A DNA stretch of 64,000 nucleotides from Halocatena pleomorpha (GCF_003862495.1 NZ_RRCH01000003.1:62001-126000), one strand, 5' to 3'. Positions 53,970 to 59,092 are shown, counted from the first letter of the stretch. The notes: generated by a model from the letters alone, not told the origin. Made by a program: numbers and translations.

Positions 53970-54536
53970 ATGGGTGTCCGATCAGTCGCCATCAAGGCGT
54001 ACCGCGAGGGTGTGGGTGCACTCAGCGCGAGTACGGTCGGAAGCCTTCTCGCTGGGATCGTTCTGAGCGGGCTGAAGACGGAGTTTCGGCTGCTTCCTGG
54101 GTTACTTGTGCTCGTTCCTGCGCTGCTCGCCACGCGGGGAAACGTGTACGGCTCGCTCGGTGCTCGCATCGCCACCGCGCTCCATCAAGGACTTCTCACC
54201 CCGTCGCTGTCCTCTCGGGATAAGCGACTCGAATCGGCGGTGGTTGCCGCACTCACAAACGGGGTGCTCACGAGCGCGTTCGCTGCCATCGCGGCGTTCG
54301 TCTTCCTCTGGGTGCTCTCCGAGCCGGCCGTGTTAGGCGCTCTCCTCGCCGTTGCAGTGTTGGCCGGTCTGCTTTCGGGGCTTGCACTATCGATCACCGT
54401 CGTTGTTGTCGTGTTTGCTGGCTATCGTCGAGGGTACAACCCAGACACGCTGGTCGGCCCGATCGTAACGACCACTGGCGACATCTTCGGGGTCTTCTTT
54501 CTGTATCTCGCGGTCAAGGTGGTGCTCGCACTGTGA
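53970..54536 (+). CDS. MgtE-type magnesium transporter, membrane half 1
   Basis: 188-residue membrane protein equal to one MgtE/SLC41 membrane domain (PF01769-like): LLVLVPALLATRGNVYGSLGARIATALHQG near 50-79 (quoted in part: ATRGNVYGSLGARI) and the closing helix region GDIFGVFFLYLAV near 170-182. The cytoplasmic N and CBS domains of MgtE are absent. It overlaps the following homologous gene by 4 bp, so the two are likely the halves of a heterodimeric channel. Confidence 0.85.
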   Translation: MGVRSVAIKAYREGVGALSASTVGSLLAGIVLSGLKTEFRLLPGLLVLVPALLATRGNVYGSLGARIATALHQGLLTPSLSSRDKRLESAVVAALTNGVLTSAFAAIAAFVFLWVLSEPAVLGALLAVAVLAGLLSGLALSITVVVVVFAGYRRGYNPDTLVGPIVTTTGDIFGVFFLYLAVKVVLAL

Positions 54537-55087
54537 CGACCGACTGGACCGTCCGGGCCATTATGCGCGCGACGATCCCTGTGCTGTTCGCGTTGACGAT
54601 CCTTGAGATCGGGAGCGGACTCGTCCTCAACGAGTTCGAAGCGACGTTGTTGCAGTATCCCACACTGTTGGTGCTCGTTCCGGTCGTCATCGGCACAGCC
54701 GGTAATCTCGGTAGTATACTCGCCTCACGGCTCTCGACGGCGCTTCATCTCGGAACGTTGTCGTTCGGCACGGACGCGCTGCTGGTTGGCAACGCCCTCG
54801 CTACAGTTGCGCTCGCGTTCACCGTGTTTCCGGGCGTCGGAATCGGTGCGTGGCTGCTCACCACGCTCCTCGGAACGGCACAGCTCCCGATCATGACGAT
54901 CCTCCTCGTTGCAGTGGGTAGCGGTGGGGCCTTGGCCGTGATCGCGGTGCTCGTTACAGTCGTCGCAACCTACACCGCCTACCGACTCCAACTCGATCCC
55001 GACGACGTGGTGATCCCAGTCGTCACGAACGTCTGTGACGTTTTCGGCGTCCTCGTGTTGTTCGCCGTAGTAGAGCTGATTGTGTAA
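54533..55087 (+). CDS. MgtE-type magnesium transporter, membrane half 2
   Basis: 184-residue membrane protein homologous to the preceding gene product: LVPVVIGTAGNLGSILASRL near 45-64 and the closing NVCDVFGVLVLFAVVELIV are the counterparts. Starts at GTG 54533 (GTGA overlap). Together the two match the two-domain SLC41 arrangement, split into separate chains. Magnesium is the expected substrate, inferred from the family. Confidence 0.85.
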   Translation: MTTDWTVRAIMRATIPVLFALTILEIGSGLVLNEFEATLLQYPTLLVLVPVVIGTAGNLGSILASRLSTALHLGTLSFGTDALLVGNALATVALAFTVFPGVGIGAWLLTTLLGTAQLPIMTILLVAVGSGGALAVIAVLVTVVATYTAYRLQLDPDDVVIPVVTNVCDVFGVLVLFAVVELIV

Positions 55088-55111: not shown

Positions 55112-56068
55112 CTATCCGAGAAGGTTCTTTCGCTCGGCTTCGGACAGTTCGGTAGCGACGGTGTTCATCGAACAGTGTTCACACTCCATCGCCGGATTCA
55201 TGCTTTTGCCGTACACCTTGATCGGACGGCCAAAGAGGAACCACGCGTCCAACTGGTGGCGTTCGATGACCGCGTCGGCGGCTGCCCCGCAGTTTTGACA
55301 CCATTGCTCCTCCGTCGCGGGAACCTGATAGGTGACTTTCGATCGTCCGAATCCGGCAGCGTCAAACGCCTCATCCTTCGTGGTTTCGATGAGATCCTCG
55401 ACTGGATACGGATCGTCAATGATCTCATTGTCAAAACCGGTGGTGGTCTGGTTGCCGACCGACAGTCGAGGTCCGACTTGGACGGTGTTTTCGTACCCGA
55501 GTATCACGACGTTGACAGCGGCGTCACGCCCCGTGATCGTCACTTCATGGCCGTATCCGACGACGTACACGTCGATATCGTTCACCGCCTGATCGATGTC
55601 GACAGTGTGGTGTGCACCAGTGACGTATGCGCCTGTGTCGGGATCCTCGACAGCGTCCGATTGTCGCCACCCAGTCGTGGTGCTATCGTACGCCTGTCCA
55701 TCAGTGGGAACATCGATATCCGACGCAGAATAGGCGTTTTCCGCACCACCGATCGAAAACGTTCCCGTTGCGTGTGCCGGAACGAACACGTCCTCGGCGT
55801 CAGTAACGACGAGATCGCCAGCAACCCCACCGTTTTGCACGTACCCGTCTTCGAGATCACCACGAACAGTCGTTTCCACATCGACCTCGGGGGTTGTTTC
55901 CCCGATGGGATGGTGTGTAAACACGTTTTCCGGATTGCTCGCTATTAGATCGCCATCGACGCCGTCTATCTGGATGAACACGTCATCAGGGTTGCGGATC
56001 TCGATCGGTGCGTCCAACGAACCGGTGAGCGTTACGTCGCCGCTGTAGGTCGTTGCGGAATCACTCAT
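55112..56068 (-). CDS. Beta-repeat protein with C-terminal zinc ribbon
   Basis: 318-residue protein of unknown function, last in a four-gene operon. The first 120 residues contain an internal repeat: DVFIQIDGVDGDLIASNPENVF and DGYVQNGGVAGDLVVTDAEDVF share the frame D-x-(F/Y)-(I/V)-Q-x2-GV-x-GDL. A central part (IDVYVVGYGHEVTITGRD) recalls DUF3060-like beta-helix repeats. The C-terminus has CQNC near 257 and CEHC near 294, a split zinc ribbon, followed by a helix. No signal peptide. It starts 26 bp after the DUF2617-like gene. Confidence 0.75.
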   Translation of the reverse strand: MSDSATTYSGDVTLTGSLDAPIEIRNPDDVFIQIDGVDGDLIASNPENVFTHHPIGETTPEVDVETTVRGDLEDGYVQNGGVAGDLVVTDAEDVFVPAHATGTFSIGGAENAYSASDIDVPTDGQAYDSTTTGWRQSDAVEDPDTGAYVTGAHHTVDIDQAVNDIDVYVVGYGHEVTITGRDAAVNVVILGYENTVQVGPRLSVGNQTTTGFDNEIIDDPYPVEDLIETTKDEAFDAAGFGRSKVTYQVPATEEQWCQNCGAAADAVIERHQLDAWFLFGRPIKVYGKSMNPAMECEHCSMNTVATELSEAERKNLLG

Positions 56069-56094
56069 ACGTACCAGTTTAATGTCTGTTTATA

Positions 56095-56625
56095 TCAATC
56101 TGTTTGGATACGACAATCCGTTGTGCGTGGTGGCTCGGTGTCCGACGAGTCGTCGTCTGTGACCGCCGTGAGACGCGTCTGACTGTACAGCGTGCAGTCG
56201 TATTCGGGATACGTGTGGTACGTCTCATAGCCTTCGGTTGTGAGGCGAATCATCGTCCATGCGTCAGGACCGAACCGGTATGCGATATCGGCGCGGGCCG
56301 CTGCTGGACGGTCTGAGAGCGGCCGCGTTTCGAGCGTCGTCGACGCCGACAGGTGGTCGTTCTCGAACGTGAACGATCGGTCGACCGACTCCAGCAGAGA
56401 CACGCTGGCCATCGACTCGGCGTGAAGCGGGCGACACGAACAGAGTTCGTGAAAACCCAGCCGTCGACTGGCGATGTAATGTGATGAACCGATGATGGTG
56501 AGCGTGGCGGATGTTCCGAACAGTTCGGCTGAAACCGTCCGCTTCACATCGAACTGGTCGAGCGACAGTGGCGTCCGCGTGTACGTGAAATACAACTGTT
56601 CGGAAACGATACTACTGTCTGTCAT
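56095..56625 (-). CDS. DUF2617-like protein
   Basis: 176-residue soluble protein. The N-terminal SAELFGTSATLTIIGSSHYI and the C-terminal YETYHTYPEYDCTLYSQTRL resemble DUF2617, whose members keep a GASH-like strand and an HTYP-type turn near the end. DUF2617 genes in bacteria often neighbour membrane aminopropyltransferase genes, as here: the upstream gene stops 13 bp away. The start at 56625 is fixed by the frame and the neighbour's stop. Function unknown. Confidence 0.65.
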   Translation of the reverse strand: MTDSSIVSEQLYFTYTRTPLSLDQFDVKRTVSAELFGTSATLTIIGSSHYIASRRLGFHELCSCRPLHAESMASVSLLESVDRSFTFENDHLSASTTLETRPLSDRPAAARADIAYRFGPDAWTMIRLTTEGYETYHTYPEYDCTLYSQTRLTAVTDDDSSDTEPPRTTDCRIQTD

Positions 56626-56638
56626 ACAATGTGTGCGC

Positions 56639-58381
56639 TCATCTATCGACAATGATGTCGTAGTTCGGATGGAAGATCGAGTTGCTCCGGACGCCGGCGT
56701 ACCGCGGAACCGGCTCCCACTGGGTCGTTTCATAGCGCTCTGCGTACCGGCGGACGTACGCTGTTCGACCGGTATCGATCGGCCCGCGCGCCGTCGGTGC
56801 GAGCAGAGAGAATCGTTCGACACGCTCGGTCCGGCCGTCGCTGTCAGTATCCTCCCACGCCGAATACGGTAGCTGCTGTGTAAAGCCCGCCTCGCGGAGG
56901 GTGTTGGTGTACGCCTTGTGGTGCTGGGGATGCGTGTTCGGGGAGTAAAGCCACGTGCCGACCAACCCGCCGTCTGTGAGATGGGTTCGAAGGAGTCGGT
57001 AGAACTCCGTGGAGTACAGTTTGAGGAGGTCGTCGTCGGACGCGCCTGGGACATCGAGCAGGATGAGATCGTACTGTTTGTCCGTCCGCTGGAGATGCGT
57101 GTAGCCGTCTTCGACGGTTGTGTTGAGCCGTGAATACGTGTACGAATCGTTGTGCCACTCGCGGAAGAACGGCGTTCGCTTGGTGTGATTCATGAACTGG
57201 GCGTCGAGATCTACCTGATCAACGCTGACGTTGTACGATCGAAGGTGGTCGATGGCGATCCAATCACCGCCACCGATTACGAGCACTTCGGTGTCGGGTG
57301 TGTGTTCGTACATCGACATCGGTACGTCCACGAGTCCGTTGTGATAGGAGTCCGCCCAACTCTCACACAACTGTACGTCCATTCCGAGCCGAAGACACTG
57401 CTCGGCCCGACCGGTGAAGTAGGGGTTCGAACTCGATGCCGTCCACGTCCGGCGGTAGCGAACGAGGTGCTGGTATTTCGTCGTCTTCTGGTTGAGGACT
57501 TCCGTTTTCATGGTTCCCGGCGCGTATTCGGCTTCCATTTTCTGTTCAAGATACATCTCTGTCACCTGGTTGTCAAGCCGCTTGTGGTGAGTAAGCGCCC
57601 CAGCGTGGCCGGCGGTGAGGAGTAAACACACGACCAACAACACCCGGGGTTCGGTGGCAAACGAAAGCCCAGTTCCACCACCACCAACGCCCCACCGCTC
57701 ACTGAACCGAACGAGAAATACCAGTGCCGTGACTGCGTTGATCAACGACAGCACCACGGTCGTCGTCACAAGCCCGAGTCGCGGATAGAGGAGTCGAGCG
57801 TAGACGACCGCACCGGCAAGCCCCCCGATGTAATCCAGCGCGAGCACGACCGACAGTCCGCTTCGTGTCTCTCCTGACGAATGCGTATGCCAGAACAGTT
57901 CCAGTCCGCGCCGTCCGAGAGTTGAGACACGTCCGGTGACCCCTCCGATCGAAGAAGGGTCCTCATCAGTTTCCTGAACCATTCTCGTCAGTAAGGGTAG
58001 TTCGAATCCCGAGAGCACGCCCACAGCGATCACTGGGAGCCGTGCGAGTACCCACACGACAGCGGCGGGGATCCATGATGGGAGTGTGACGCTGTTCAGC
58101 GCGACGACGAGCAAGAACCCGGCGGGGGCAACCGTCGCGAGATACACCTCGGTTCGGAAGAAGTTCGCGGGACGGTCGGCTCCAAGATCGTCTGACAGCC
58201 CAGCACCGATGCCGAGACTGAAAAAATACAGCCCGACGGTGATGACGTACTGGGTGACTGTCCCCCCATACATCACGGTGAGCAACTCCGAGTAGACGAA
58301 TTCATACGCAAAGCTACAGAACGATACGACAAACGTCACCGATAGCAGTACGAACCGCCGAGAACGTAATGAACGTTTCAT
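56639..58381 (-). CDS. Membrane-fused aminopropyltransferase (spermidine synthase)-like protein
   Basis: 580-residue protein with about seven or eight membrane helices (residues 8-265), then a soluble Rossmann domain resembling spermidine synthase. The cofactor loop is VIGGGDWIAIDHLRSY near 366-381, where GGGDG of true enzymes is GGGDW; VDQVDLD near 385 fits the ligand-binding acidic strand; the active-site segment reads LLDVPGASDD instead of DSTDP. Such fusions are known in bacteria, with unproven function. The altered active site leaves aminopropyl transfer doubtful. Operon with the lipoprotein upstream (45 bp) and the DUF2617-like gene downstream (13 bp). Confidence 0.85.
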   Translation of the reverse strand: MKRSLRSRRFVLLSVTFVVSFCSFAYEFVYSELLTVMYGGTVTQYVITVGLYFFSLGIGAGLSDDLGADRPANFFRTEVYLATVAPAGFLLVVALNSVTLPSWIPAAVVWVLARLPVIAVGVLSGFELPLLTRMVQETDEDPSSIGGVTGRVSTLGRRGLELFWHTHSSGETRSGLSVVLALDYIGGLAGAVVYARLLYPRLGLVTTTVVLSLINAVTALVFLVRFSERWGVGGGGTGLSFATEPRVLLVVCLLLTAGHAGALTHHKRLDNQVTEMYLEQKMEAEYAPGTMKTEVLNQKTTKYQHLVRYRRTWTASSSNPYFTGRAEQCLRLGMDVQLCESWADSYHNGLVDVPMSMYEHTPDTEVLVIGGGDWIAIDHLRSYNVSVDQVDLDAQFMNHTKRTPFFREWHNDSYTYSRLNTTVEDGYTHLQRTDKQYDLILLDVPGASDDDLLKLYSTEFYRLLRTHLTDGGLVGTWLYSPNTHPQHHKAYTNTLREAGFTQQLPYSAWEDTDSDGRTERVERFSLLAPTARGPIDTGRTAYVRRYAERYETTQWEPVPRYAGVRSNSIFHPNYDIIVDR

Positions 58382-58426
58382 ATGCGCCTACGTATTTCCG
58401 ATCAGTACAGCCCTCTGTGATTCCGA

Positions 58427-59092
58427 TCAGATCCGGGGCGACACCTTCCACTCGTTTTGTATGGCGTAGGACTGTCCAACAGAACTGACTTTGAAGTCGA
58501 CACACTCCCACTGGAAGTCGTGATCGACTTTCTTGCCAACGATGTGCGCTCCGACACGGTACCAGCCTGGTTTTCGGAGCGGGTGGTCGATTCGGTCTTT
58601 GGGGGACCGGTAGGTCCAATCCCAATCGACCGGTCCAGCACCGGGGCGGTCCTTTTTGAACACGGCGTCGGAACCGAACGAACGCACCCCGACCTTCTCG
58701 ATTCGAACCGAATACCGGCTCGTTTCGTCTTCGTGGTCGTCATACCAGTCATCGGCGTAATCACCACCGTGCCACCACGCCCAGCCGTGATTAGTTCTAG
58801 GAGCGTTCACGTGTCCGCCCCCTGCTCGACCCGTTGCGCCTCGGACACTACCACCGCCACCGCCTTTTGCAGCCGCGACGCCAACCGGAGCATCGATCGA
58901 CGACCGAGGGGGCGTGTACCGCGATAAGACCCACACTCGGTCCGCGAGATCGATACGAATCATCCCGTCGTTGGTCTCAAGCTGCTCAACAACACTGGAT
59001 TTGCGCGGAGGAGGAGTCTCATCCGACGAACAGCCGGCGAGGACTGGCAGGGCAGTAGCACCGATAACTCTAAGAAAGCGACGACGATGCAT
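58427..59092 (-). CDS. Tat-secreted lipoprotein
   Basis: 221-residue lipoprotein. The twin-arginine MHRRRFLRVIG and lipobox LAGC (Cys 21) predict Tat export and lipid anchoring on the outer face. The mature protein has a Gly-rich loop near residues 75-95 (GGGGGSVRGATGRAGGGH) and a Trp/Asp/Tyr-rich patch HGWAWWHGGDYADDWYDDHED near 102-122. No known domain. First gene of the operon. In bacteria, membrane aminopropyltransferase clusters often include a secreted lipoprotein too, so the role is likely shared, by context. Confidence 0.75.
   Translation of the reverse strand: MHRRRFLRVIGATALPVLAGCSSDETPPPRKSSVVEQLETNDGMIRIDLADRVWVLSRYTPPRSSIDAPVGVAAAKGGGGGSVRGATGRAGGGHVNAPRTNHGWAWWHGGDYADDWYDDHEDETSRYSVRIEKVGVRSFGSDAVFKKDRPGAGPVDWDWTYRSPKDRIDHPLRKPGWYRVGAHIVGKKVDHDFQWECVDFKVSSVGQSYAIQNEWKVSPRI

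Follow-up and report, generated by a model that had tools for sequence, protein, structure and literature searches.

A conserved haloarchaeal gene module pairs a membrane spermidine-synthase-like protein with a DUF2617 protein, a candidate AdoMet decarboxylase

Introduction

AdoMet decarboxylase (AdoMetDC) has not been found in halophiles, and the source of decarboxylated AdoMet (dcAdoMet) in these organisms is an open question (Prunetti 2016, PMC5178350). A compact gene group in Halocatena pleomorpha, a close relative of Halocatena marina in the same genus, raises this question in concrete form by setting a membrane protein with a spermidine-synthase-like (SpeE-like) domain beside a protein of the DUF2617 family: what donor would the membrane enzyme use, where would it come from, and what would be modified? 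An earlier note, made from the sequence of a 64,000-nucleotide stretch (the window), had described the group as an operon built around an aminopropyltransferase-like protein with an altered active site. Here we follow up that description by profile, structure and neighbourhood comparisons.

The locus and its genes

Four minus-strand ORFs lie at positions 55112-59092 of the window, with intergenic gaps of 45, 13 and 26 bp, and re-reading of the sequence bore out the place, strand and spacing of all four as first described. From the upstream end they are:

58427..59092, minus strand: P0001, a Tat lipoprotein of 221 aa, rich in Gly, Trp, Asp and Tyr and predicted to lie outside the cell
56639..58381, minus strand: P0002, a membrane spermidine-synthase-like protein of 580 aa (Pfam PF01564, Spermine_synth, 64 bits against a cut-off of 22.9)
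56095..56625, minus strand: P0003, a DUF2617 protein of 176 aa and candidate single-chain AdoMet decarboxylase (Pfam, profile comparison, AF2)
55112..56068, minus strand: P0004, a DUF3060-like beta-repeat protein of 318 aa with a C-terminal zinc ribbon (AF2 pLDDT 90)

Composition is even over the whole region. The Pfam scores uphold both family relations that had been proposed, P0002 to spermidine synthase and P0003 to DUF2617 (PF10936; 25.4 bits against a cut-off of 22.3, with 35 of 35 and 44 of 44 homologues matching in two separate alignments). The lipoprotein and zinc-ribbon assignments likewise stand, on these elements:

59030..59092, minus strand: Tat signal RRRFLR and lipobox LAGC, residues 1-21 of P0001, with the RR pair near-invariant and G20 and C21 invariant in 37 homologues
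55172..55300, minus strand: zinc-ribbon region of P0004, Cys257/Cys260 and Cys296/Cys299, all four invariant

Pfam shows no family for P0001 apart from the Tat signal, and no relation to DUF4247. The DUF3060-like region was found in 34 of 35 members of the P0004 family (best E 6.8e-7); neither a signal peptide nor a transmembrane (TM) segment was seen in P0004, and a Foldseek search with its model gave no usable match.

Just upstream of the four genes on the same strand lies a DUF6789 membrane protein gene (P0005, 59179-59754, minus strand), which we considered as a further member and rejected, as its homologue stands beside the module in Halocatena loci only. On the other side, two adjacent and overlapping half-size genes for MgtE-family divalent cation transporters (53970-54536 and 54533-55087, plus strand; Pfam MgtE each) converge on the module, at the spot where relatives often carry the channel gene described below. 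Next to these, right after an SRP54-like gene, is a stand-alone N4/N6 DNA methyltransferase gene (PF01555; 52786-53925, plus strand).

Conservation of the module

P0002 and P0003 were searched for in 146 genomes of the family, counting strong matches, and the genome sets for SpeE and DUF2617 were identical, comprising the same 39 of the 146. Loci from this search (window included) were pooled with those from a scan of named genomes to give 80 haloarchaeal loci, which share species between the two sets and are not 80 independent cases; at all of them (80/80) the genes for lipoprotein, SpeE and DUF2617 follow one another in this fixed order on one strand. The fourth gene, of the P0004 type, is nearby in all but three of the 80, in varying orientation, and the median overlap between SpeE and DUF2617 is 4 bp. 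Given the constant order and strand together with the identical genome sets, the grouping is not due to chance, and the neighbourhood search suggested in the earlier note thus confirms joint conservation of the four genes. Megaplasmid copies of the module occur as well, in Haloferax, Halorussus, Haloarcula and others, and the labels given to its genes there are 'spermidine synthase' and 'DUF2617 family protein'.

As a list of members, the four genes proved incomplete. Clustering of neighbouring ORFs revealed a fifth gene at 69 of the 80 loci, encoding a protein of about 700-800 aa that combines pentapeptide repeats with an Ion_trans_2 domain and ends in a C-terminal two-TM pore with a T-x-G-Y/F-G filter (examples are L032:3180-5303, minus strand, and L056:6960-9143, plus strand, with 67 other loci). 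In Haloarcula hispanica all five genes are contiguous. This channel gene is absent from the locus in the window, which is why it escaped the first reading, and elsewhere in the genome only channel-domain matches were found.

Two DUF2617 genes were excluded from the alignments, one in a Halocatena relative (L055:6590-6883, minus strand) because its reading frame looks broken, and one (L066:6757-7245, plus strand) because it reads partly as N. An anti-phage role for the module was also considered and found no support, PADLOC returning just a weak mad2 match of the SpeE domain.

The membrane SpeE-like protein

P0002 is the sole PF01564 protein that a whole-genome search found in the source genome. 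Its main elements are as follows:

57593..58351, minus strand: polytopic N-terminal part with about 7 TM segments, judged from the mean hydropathy and the loop charges of 32 homologues
57365..57397, minus strand: Cys329/Cys339 pair of the catalytic domain, which is invariant among haloarchaea but missing in four bacterial membrane homologues
57260..57274, minus strand: donor-binding loop GGGDW, with Asp373 as the Asp/Glu of GGG(D/E)G
57041..57055, minus strand: active-site motif D443-V-P-G446-A, with the base Asp kept and Gly in place of the second DxPDP Asp

The loop GGGDW and the segment LLDVPGASDD read exactly as had been noted. They had been described as altered, but both motifs are conserved, GGGD in 32 of 32 homologues and DxPG[A/V] likewise in 32 of 32. 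According to PMC11107197 the Asp/Glu of the GGG(D/E)G loop in aminopropyltransferases contributes to dcAdoMet binding; in human spermidine synthase putrescine is activated by Asp173, the first Asp of the active-site motif, acting as a base (PMC12812037). P0002 has both the donor loop and the base Asp, D443 being invariant, whereas the second Asp of DxxDP/DxPDP is Gly in all 32 homologues and the polyamine aminopropyltransferase equivalog NF002956 is not reached (228.7 bits against 472). P0002 is thus not a spermidine synthase in the strict sense. The idea of an altered active site holds for the acceptor side, where DxPGA departs from the DLPDP/DFPDP of bacterial membrane homologues, and not for the donor side, where GGGD is preserved, as is the catalytic-base Asp. 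From the invariance of GGGD and D443, and from Gly in place of the second motif Asp, we infer that the enzyme keeps its donor and has changed its acceptor. SpeE homologues of halophiles, including those of Haloferax volcanii, have been described as lacking the putrescine-binding residues; in Hfx. volcanii no polyamine product requiring dcAdoMet was found, and deletion of one SpeE homologue gave no phenotype in the conditions tested (Prunetti 2016, PMC5178350). The candidate orthologues in that species are HVO_0255 and HVO_B0357.

From the positive-inside pattern of loop charges, the N-terminus is predicted to be inside and the catalytic domain outside the cell. The invariant Cys pair of the haloarchaeal proteins, predicted to lie on a beta-hairpin, is compatible with an external catalytic domain.

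DUF2617 and the AdoMet decarboxylase superfamily

No function for the DUF2617 family was found in the literature searched. Our starting lead was a sub-threshold AdoMet_dc match of P0003, centred on HTYPE, which at 12.7 bits falls well below the cut-off of 25. One DUF2617 member, the best of the alignment, matches PF02675 at E 8e-4, and the best sequence match of DUF2617 in the PDB is to the SpeD entry 2iii (E 0.22-0.64). When the DUF2617 profile was compared with that of 33 archaeal SpeD proteins, P was 2.7e-5 (three unrelated alignments gave 0.28-0.68), and the score of 35.5 was reached by none of 150 column shuffles (12.0±2.5). The strong signal consists of 38 columns in the C half of DUF2617, which alone scored 34.6 (shuffles 10.2±2.1); the N half alone gave a weak 20.3 (shuffles 10.8±2.3, reached by 2 of 150), and a repeat between the two halves was not detectable by profile. 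At the level of sequence profiles, then, the C half of DUF2617 is remotely related to SpeD.

The residues of interest in P0003 are these:

56479..56490, minus strand: G46-S47-S48-H49, candidate self-cleavage site with a pyruvoyl-forming Ser48; S48 and H49 invariant
56434..56436, minus strand: invariant Cys64, by alignment the proposed counterpart of SpeD Cys83 and human Cys82
56203..56274, minus strand: F118...T124...H137-x3-E141, invariant in the alignment, the proposed counterparts of human F223, S229, H243 and E247

Ser-His is found in 62 of 62 distinct DUF2617 homologues, preceded by S in 37 and by E in 16, so that some, for example in Haloferax, have the E|S-H form. Processing and catalysis in Thermotoga maritima SpeD depend on S63, H68 and C83 (PMC10407285), for which the invariant candidate counterparts in DUF2617 are S48, H137 and C64; on alignment grounds, S48 and C64 of the N half would be structurally equivalent to the SpeD residues. 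For the human enzyme residues were read from PDB sequences, and for DUF2617 conservation covers archaeal homologues. Human AdoMetDC divides its residues between the halves of one chain (S68 and C82, then F223, S229, H243 and E247), and DUF2617 divides its own likewise, with identical Phe-6-Ser/Thr and His-4-Glu spacings. In the human protein C82 and H243 are catalytic and S229 holds AdoMet. The AdoMet contacts of Phe223 and Glu247 are documented in PMC3686867. We had also considered a C-half Glu-Gly as a dead SpeD cleavage site and dropped it, the N-half Ser-His being invariant and the pattern fitting the single-chain eukaryotic enzyme.

The AF2 model of P0003 (pLDDT 91, pTM 0.82) has twelve strands, six per half, and almost no helix. 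Foldseek against the PDB and BFVD gave no significant match, and TM-scores were low (0.2-0.3). Among the matches listed AdoMetDC entries recur near the top and have the highest probabilities (0.63 for PDB 1vr7_B, 0.95 in BFVD), none of them significant. With no significant match and low TM-scores, identity with the AdoMetDC fold is not established. DUF2617 is nonetheless a strong candidate for an AdoMet decarboxylase, and would in that case be an enzyme of the SpeD superfamily instead of the mere partner without known function for which it had been taken. No such link was found in the passages on DUF2617 that were consulted.

SpeD and DUF2617 across genomes

Canonical SpeD was detected in 3 of the 146 family genomes, only one of which belongs to the 39 that carry the module. 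In that lone genome (G094, contig C26, 37006-38433) its neighbour is a second SpeE-like match, and the module lies elsewhere. DUF2617 was detected in just two of 14 control genomes, Corynebacterium glutamicum and H. volcanii, both of which have PF01564 and lack PF02675. SpeD and DUF2617 are thus complementary in the genomes searched. In bacteria SpeD lies within 6 kb of membrane SpeE at 3 of 4 loci, namely Novosphingobium sp. ES2-1 (NZ_CP063446), with speD inside the membrane-SpeE operon, and two of three further loci; DUF2617 was found within 6 kb at none of the four. A search for actinobacterial DUF2617 among plasmid records yielded none.

Two family genomes in which the module is absent have SpeD proteins (L114 and L115) that keep ESH and HTWPE and lack the Cys of the FTC motif; these homologues possibly decarboxylate another substrate.

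Proposed mechanism and alternatives

We favour a two-enzyme aminopropylation module made up of a DUF2617 decarboxylase and a membrane SpeE-like transferase, a reading to which we give a probability of roughly 0.55. In this scheme DUF2617 would belong to the AdoMet-decarboxylase superfamily as an all-beta protein of reduced length and a single chain. Ser48 would process itself to a pyruvoyl group, catalysis would depend on Cys64 and His137, and AdoMet would be held by Phe118, Thr124 and Glu141, on the pattern of the single-chain eukaryotic enzyme. The dcAdoMet that DUF2617 would yield may then be used by P0002, with its intact donor Asp373 and base Asp443, for transfer of the aminopropyl group to an acceptor that is presumably not putrescine and is probably linked to the membrane or surface. 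The lipoprotein outside the cell, the DUF3060/zinc-ribbon protein inside and, at most loci, the channel may serve as accessory, sensing or effector parts, and these accessory genes would be connected with the envelope. Surface modification or envelope stress, as first proposed, is a reasonable guess for the role of the module. An awkward point against the scheme is that the predicted external catalytic domain sits badly with a cytosolic donor.

In a more ambitious version, unlikely to hold in full, AdoMet decarboxylases would gain a third and minimal class in DUF2617, a single-chain pseudo-dimer of about 150 residues in haloarchaea and actinobacteria, feeding dcAdoMet to a membrane enzyme with an external catalytic domain (7 TM, N-in, invariant Cys pair) so that a cell-surface or membrane component is aminopropylated. 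The external position of the domain would then imply that the TM part passes donor or acceptor across the membrane.

DUF2617 might instead descend from SpeD and be a non-catalytic subunit that binds AdoMet or dcAdoMet and regulates or assists the membrane enzyme, in the manner of the trypanosome prozyme. Dead AdoMetDC paralogues that regulate their partners are known (PMC5201418), and the coupling of the SpeE and DUF2617 genes would fit a complex. A dead subunit, however, would be expected to lose some of the candidate Ser, His and Cys residues and the counterparts of the AdoMet-binding Phe and Glu, all of which are invariant, and in 38 of the 39 module genomes no active SpeD to be regulated was detectable; we regard this alternative as improbable.

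Slightly less probable is the suggestion that DUF2617 is unrelated to SpeD, its HTYPE likeness coincidental, and that AdoMet itself is the donor of the SpeE-like domain, which would be a methyl- or aminocarboxypropyl-transferase. The lack of a significant structural match would agree with this, as would the description of DUF2617 by Ravi et al. as a beta-sandwich enzyme, with SpeD not named in the consulted part of that paper (PMC11237479), and the lack of a known dcAdoMet-dependent product in Hfx. volcanii (PMC5178350). Such a coincidence is hard to square with the column-shuffle test, with active-site residues that correspond in each half, with the way SpeD and DUF2617 complement each other over genomes, and with the invariance of the GGGD Asp and base Asp typical of dcAdoMet enzymes. 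Least probable of all is a pyruvoyl decarboxylase for another substrate (arginine or ornithine, as in SpeDA/SpeDC) whose product the SpeE-like enzyme uses, for while such neofunctionalisation of SpeD is widespread (PMC10407285), Hfx. volcanii already has the arginine decarboxylase HVO_1958 (PMC5178350), the counterparts of the AdoMet-binding Phe223 and Glu247 are kept, and the tight pairing with an enzyme having an intact dcAdoMet site favours AdoMet.

If the two-enzyme reading is right, the gene next to SpeE encodes a candidate for the AdoMet decarboxylase reported missing in halophiles (PMC5178350), and the archaeal dcAdoMet question becomes testable with one purified protein. As DUF2617 also occurs in Corynebacterium, an unexplained actinobacterial family would be named as well, and a prokaryotic single-chain form would be added to the origin story of the eukaryotic AdoMet decarboxylase. 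With its changed acceptor site, the membrane enzyme would then suggest that an aminopropylated product, perhaps of the envelope, awaits description.

Comparison with known systems

P0002 shares a Rossmann-type domain, the GGGD loop and the catalytic Asp with soluble spermidine synthases and polyamine aminopropyltransferases, and differs from them in its TM domain, in Gly for the second Asp and in its score below the NF002956 cut-off. DUF2617 resembles class 1b SpeD of archaea and bacteria in its (E)SH and HT(W/Y)PE elements and the significant 38-column profile match; in SpeD, however, Ser, His and Cys lie in one motif, whereas DUF2617 spreads them over two halves and stays below the AdoMet_dc cut-off. 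Like eukaryotic class 2 AdoMet decarboxylase it is a single chain whose N half holds Ser and Cys and whose C half holds Phe, Ser/Thr, His and Glu at near-identical spacing, but it is about half as long, with almost no predicted helix and a low structural score. In a survey of SpeD homologues published in 2023, no fused SpeD was reported from extant archaea (PMC10407285).

Bacterial operons described by Ravi et al. (2024, PMC11237479) join DUF2617 with the lipoprotein DUF4247, DUF350 and polyamine-metabolism genes, with no established function. That paper links such operons to membrane stress and predicts DUF2617, which occurs in operon variants with DUF4247, to be an enzyme of beta-sandwich fold whose conserved residues include two His, one Asp and one Glu. 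This agrees with what the earlier note said of bacterial DUF2617 operons, and the haloarchaeal DUF2617 (PF10936) belongs to the same family with no family-level difference. The further idea that the lipoprotein and the beta-repeat protein replace bacterial partners is plausible by position (the DUF3060-like protein for DUF4178, and the lipoprotein for its counterpart), but homology to those partners was not found, and among the four window proteins no Pfam match above cut-off was obtained to DUF350, DUF4178, DUF4247 or SpeD.

The bacterial PSP-linked membrane-SpeE module (SPFH, DUF4178, DUF350 and speD, as in Novosphingobium sp. ES2-1 and in groups described by Ravi et al.) has the same fusion of an N-terminal TM domain to a spermidine-synthase domain, in a compact operon with beta-rich or membrane DUFs, polyamine genes and often a lipoprotein. 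Where the bacterial loci have canonical SpeD nearby and DLPDP/DFPDP in the active site, the haloarchaea have DUF2617 and DxPGA instead, and unlike the bacterial module theirs includes the DUF3060-like/zinc-ribbon protein and often the pentapeptide-repeat channel.
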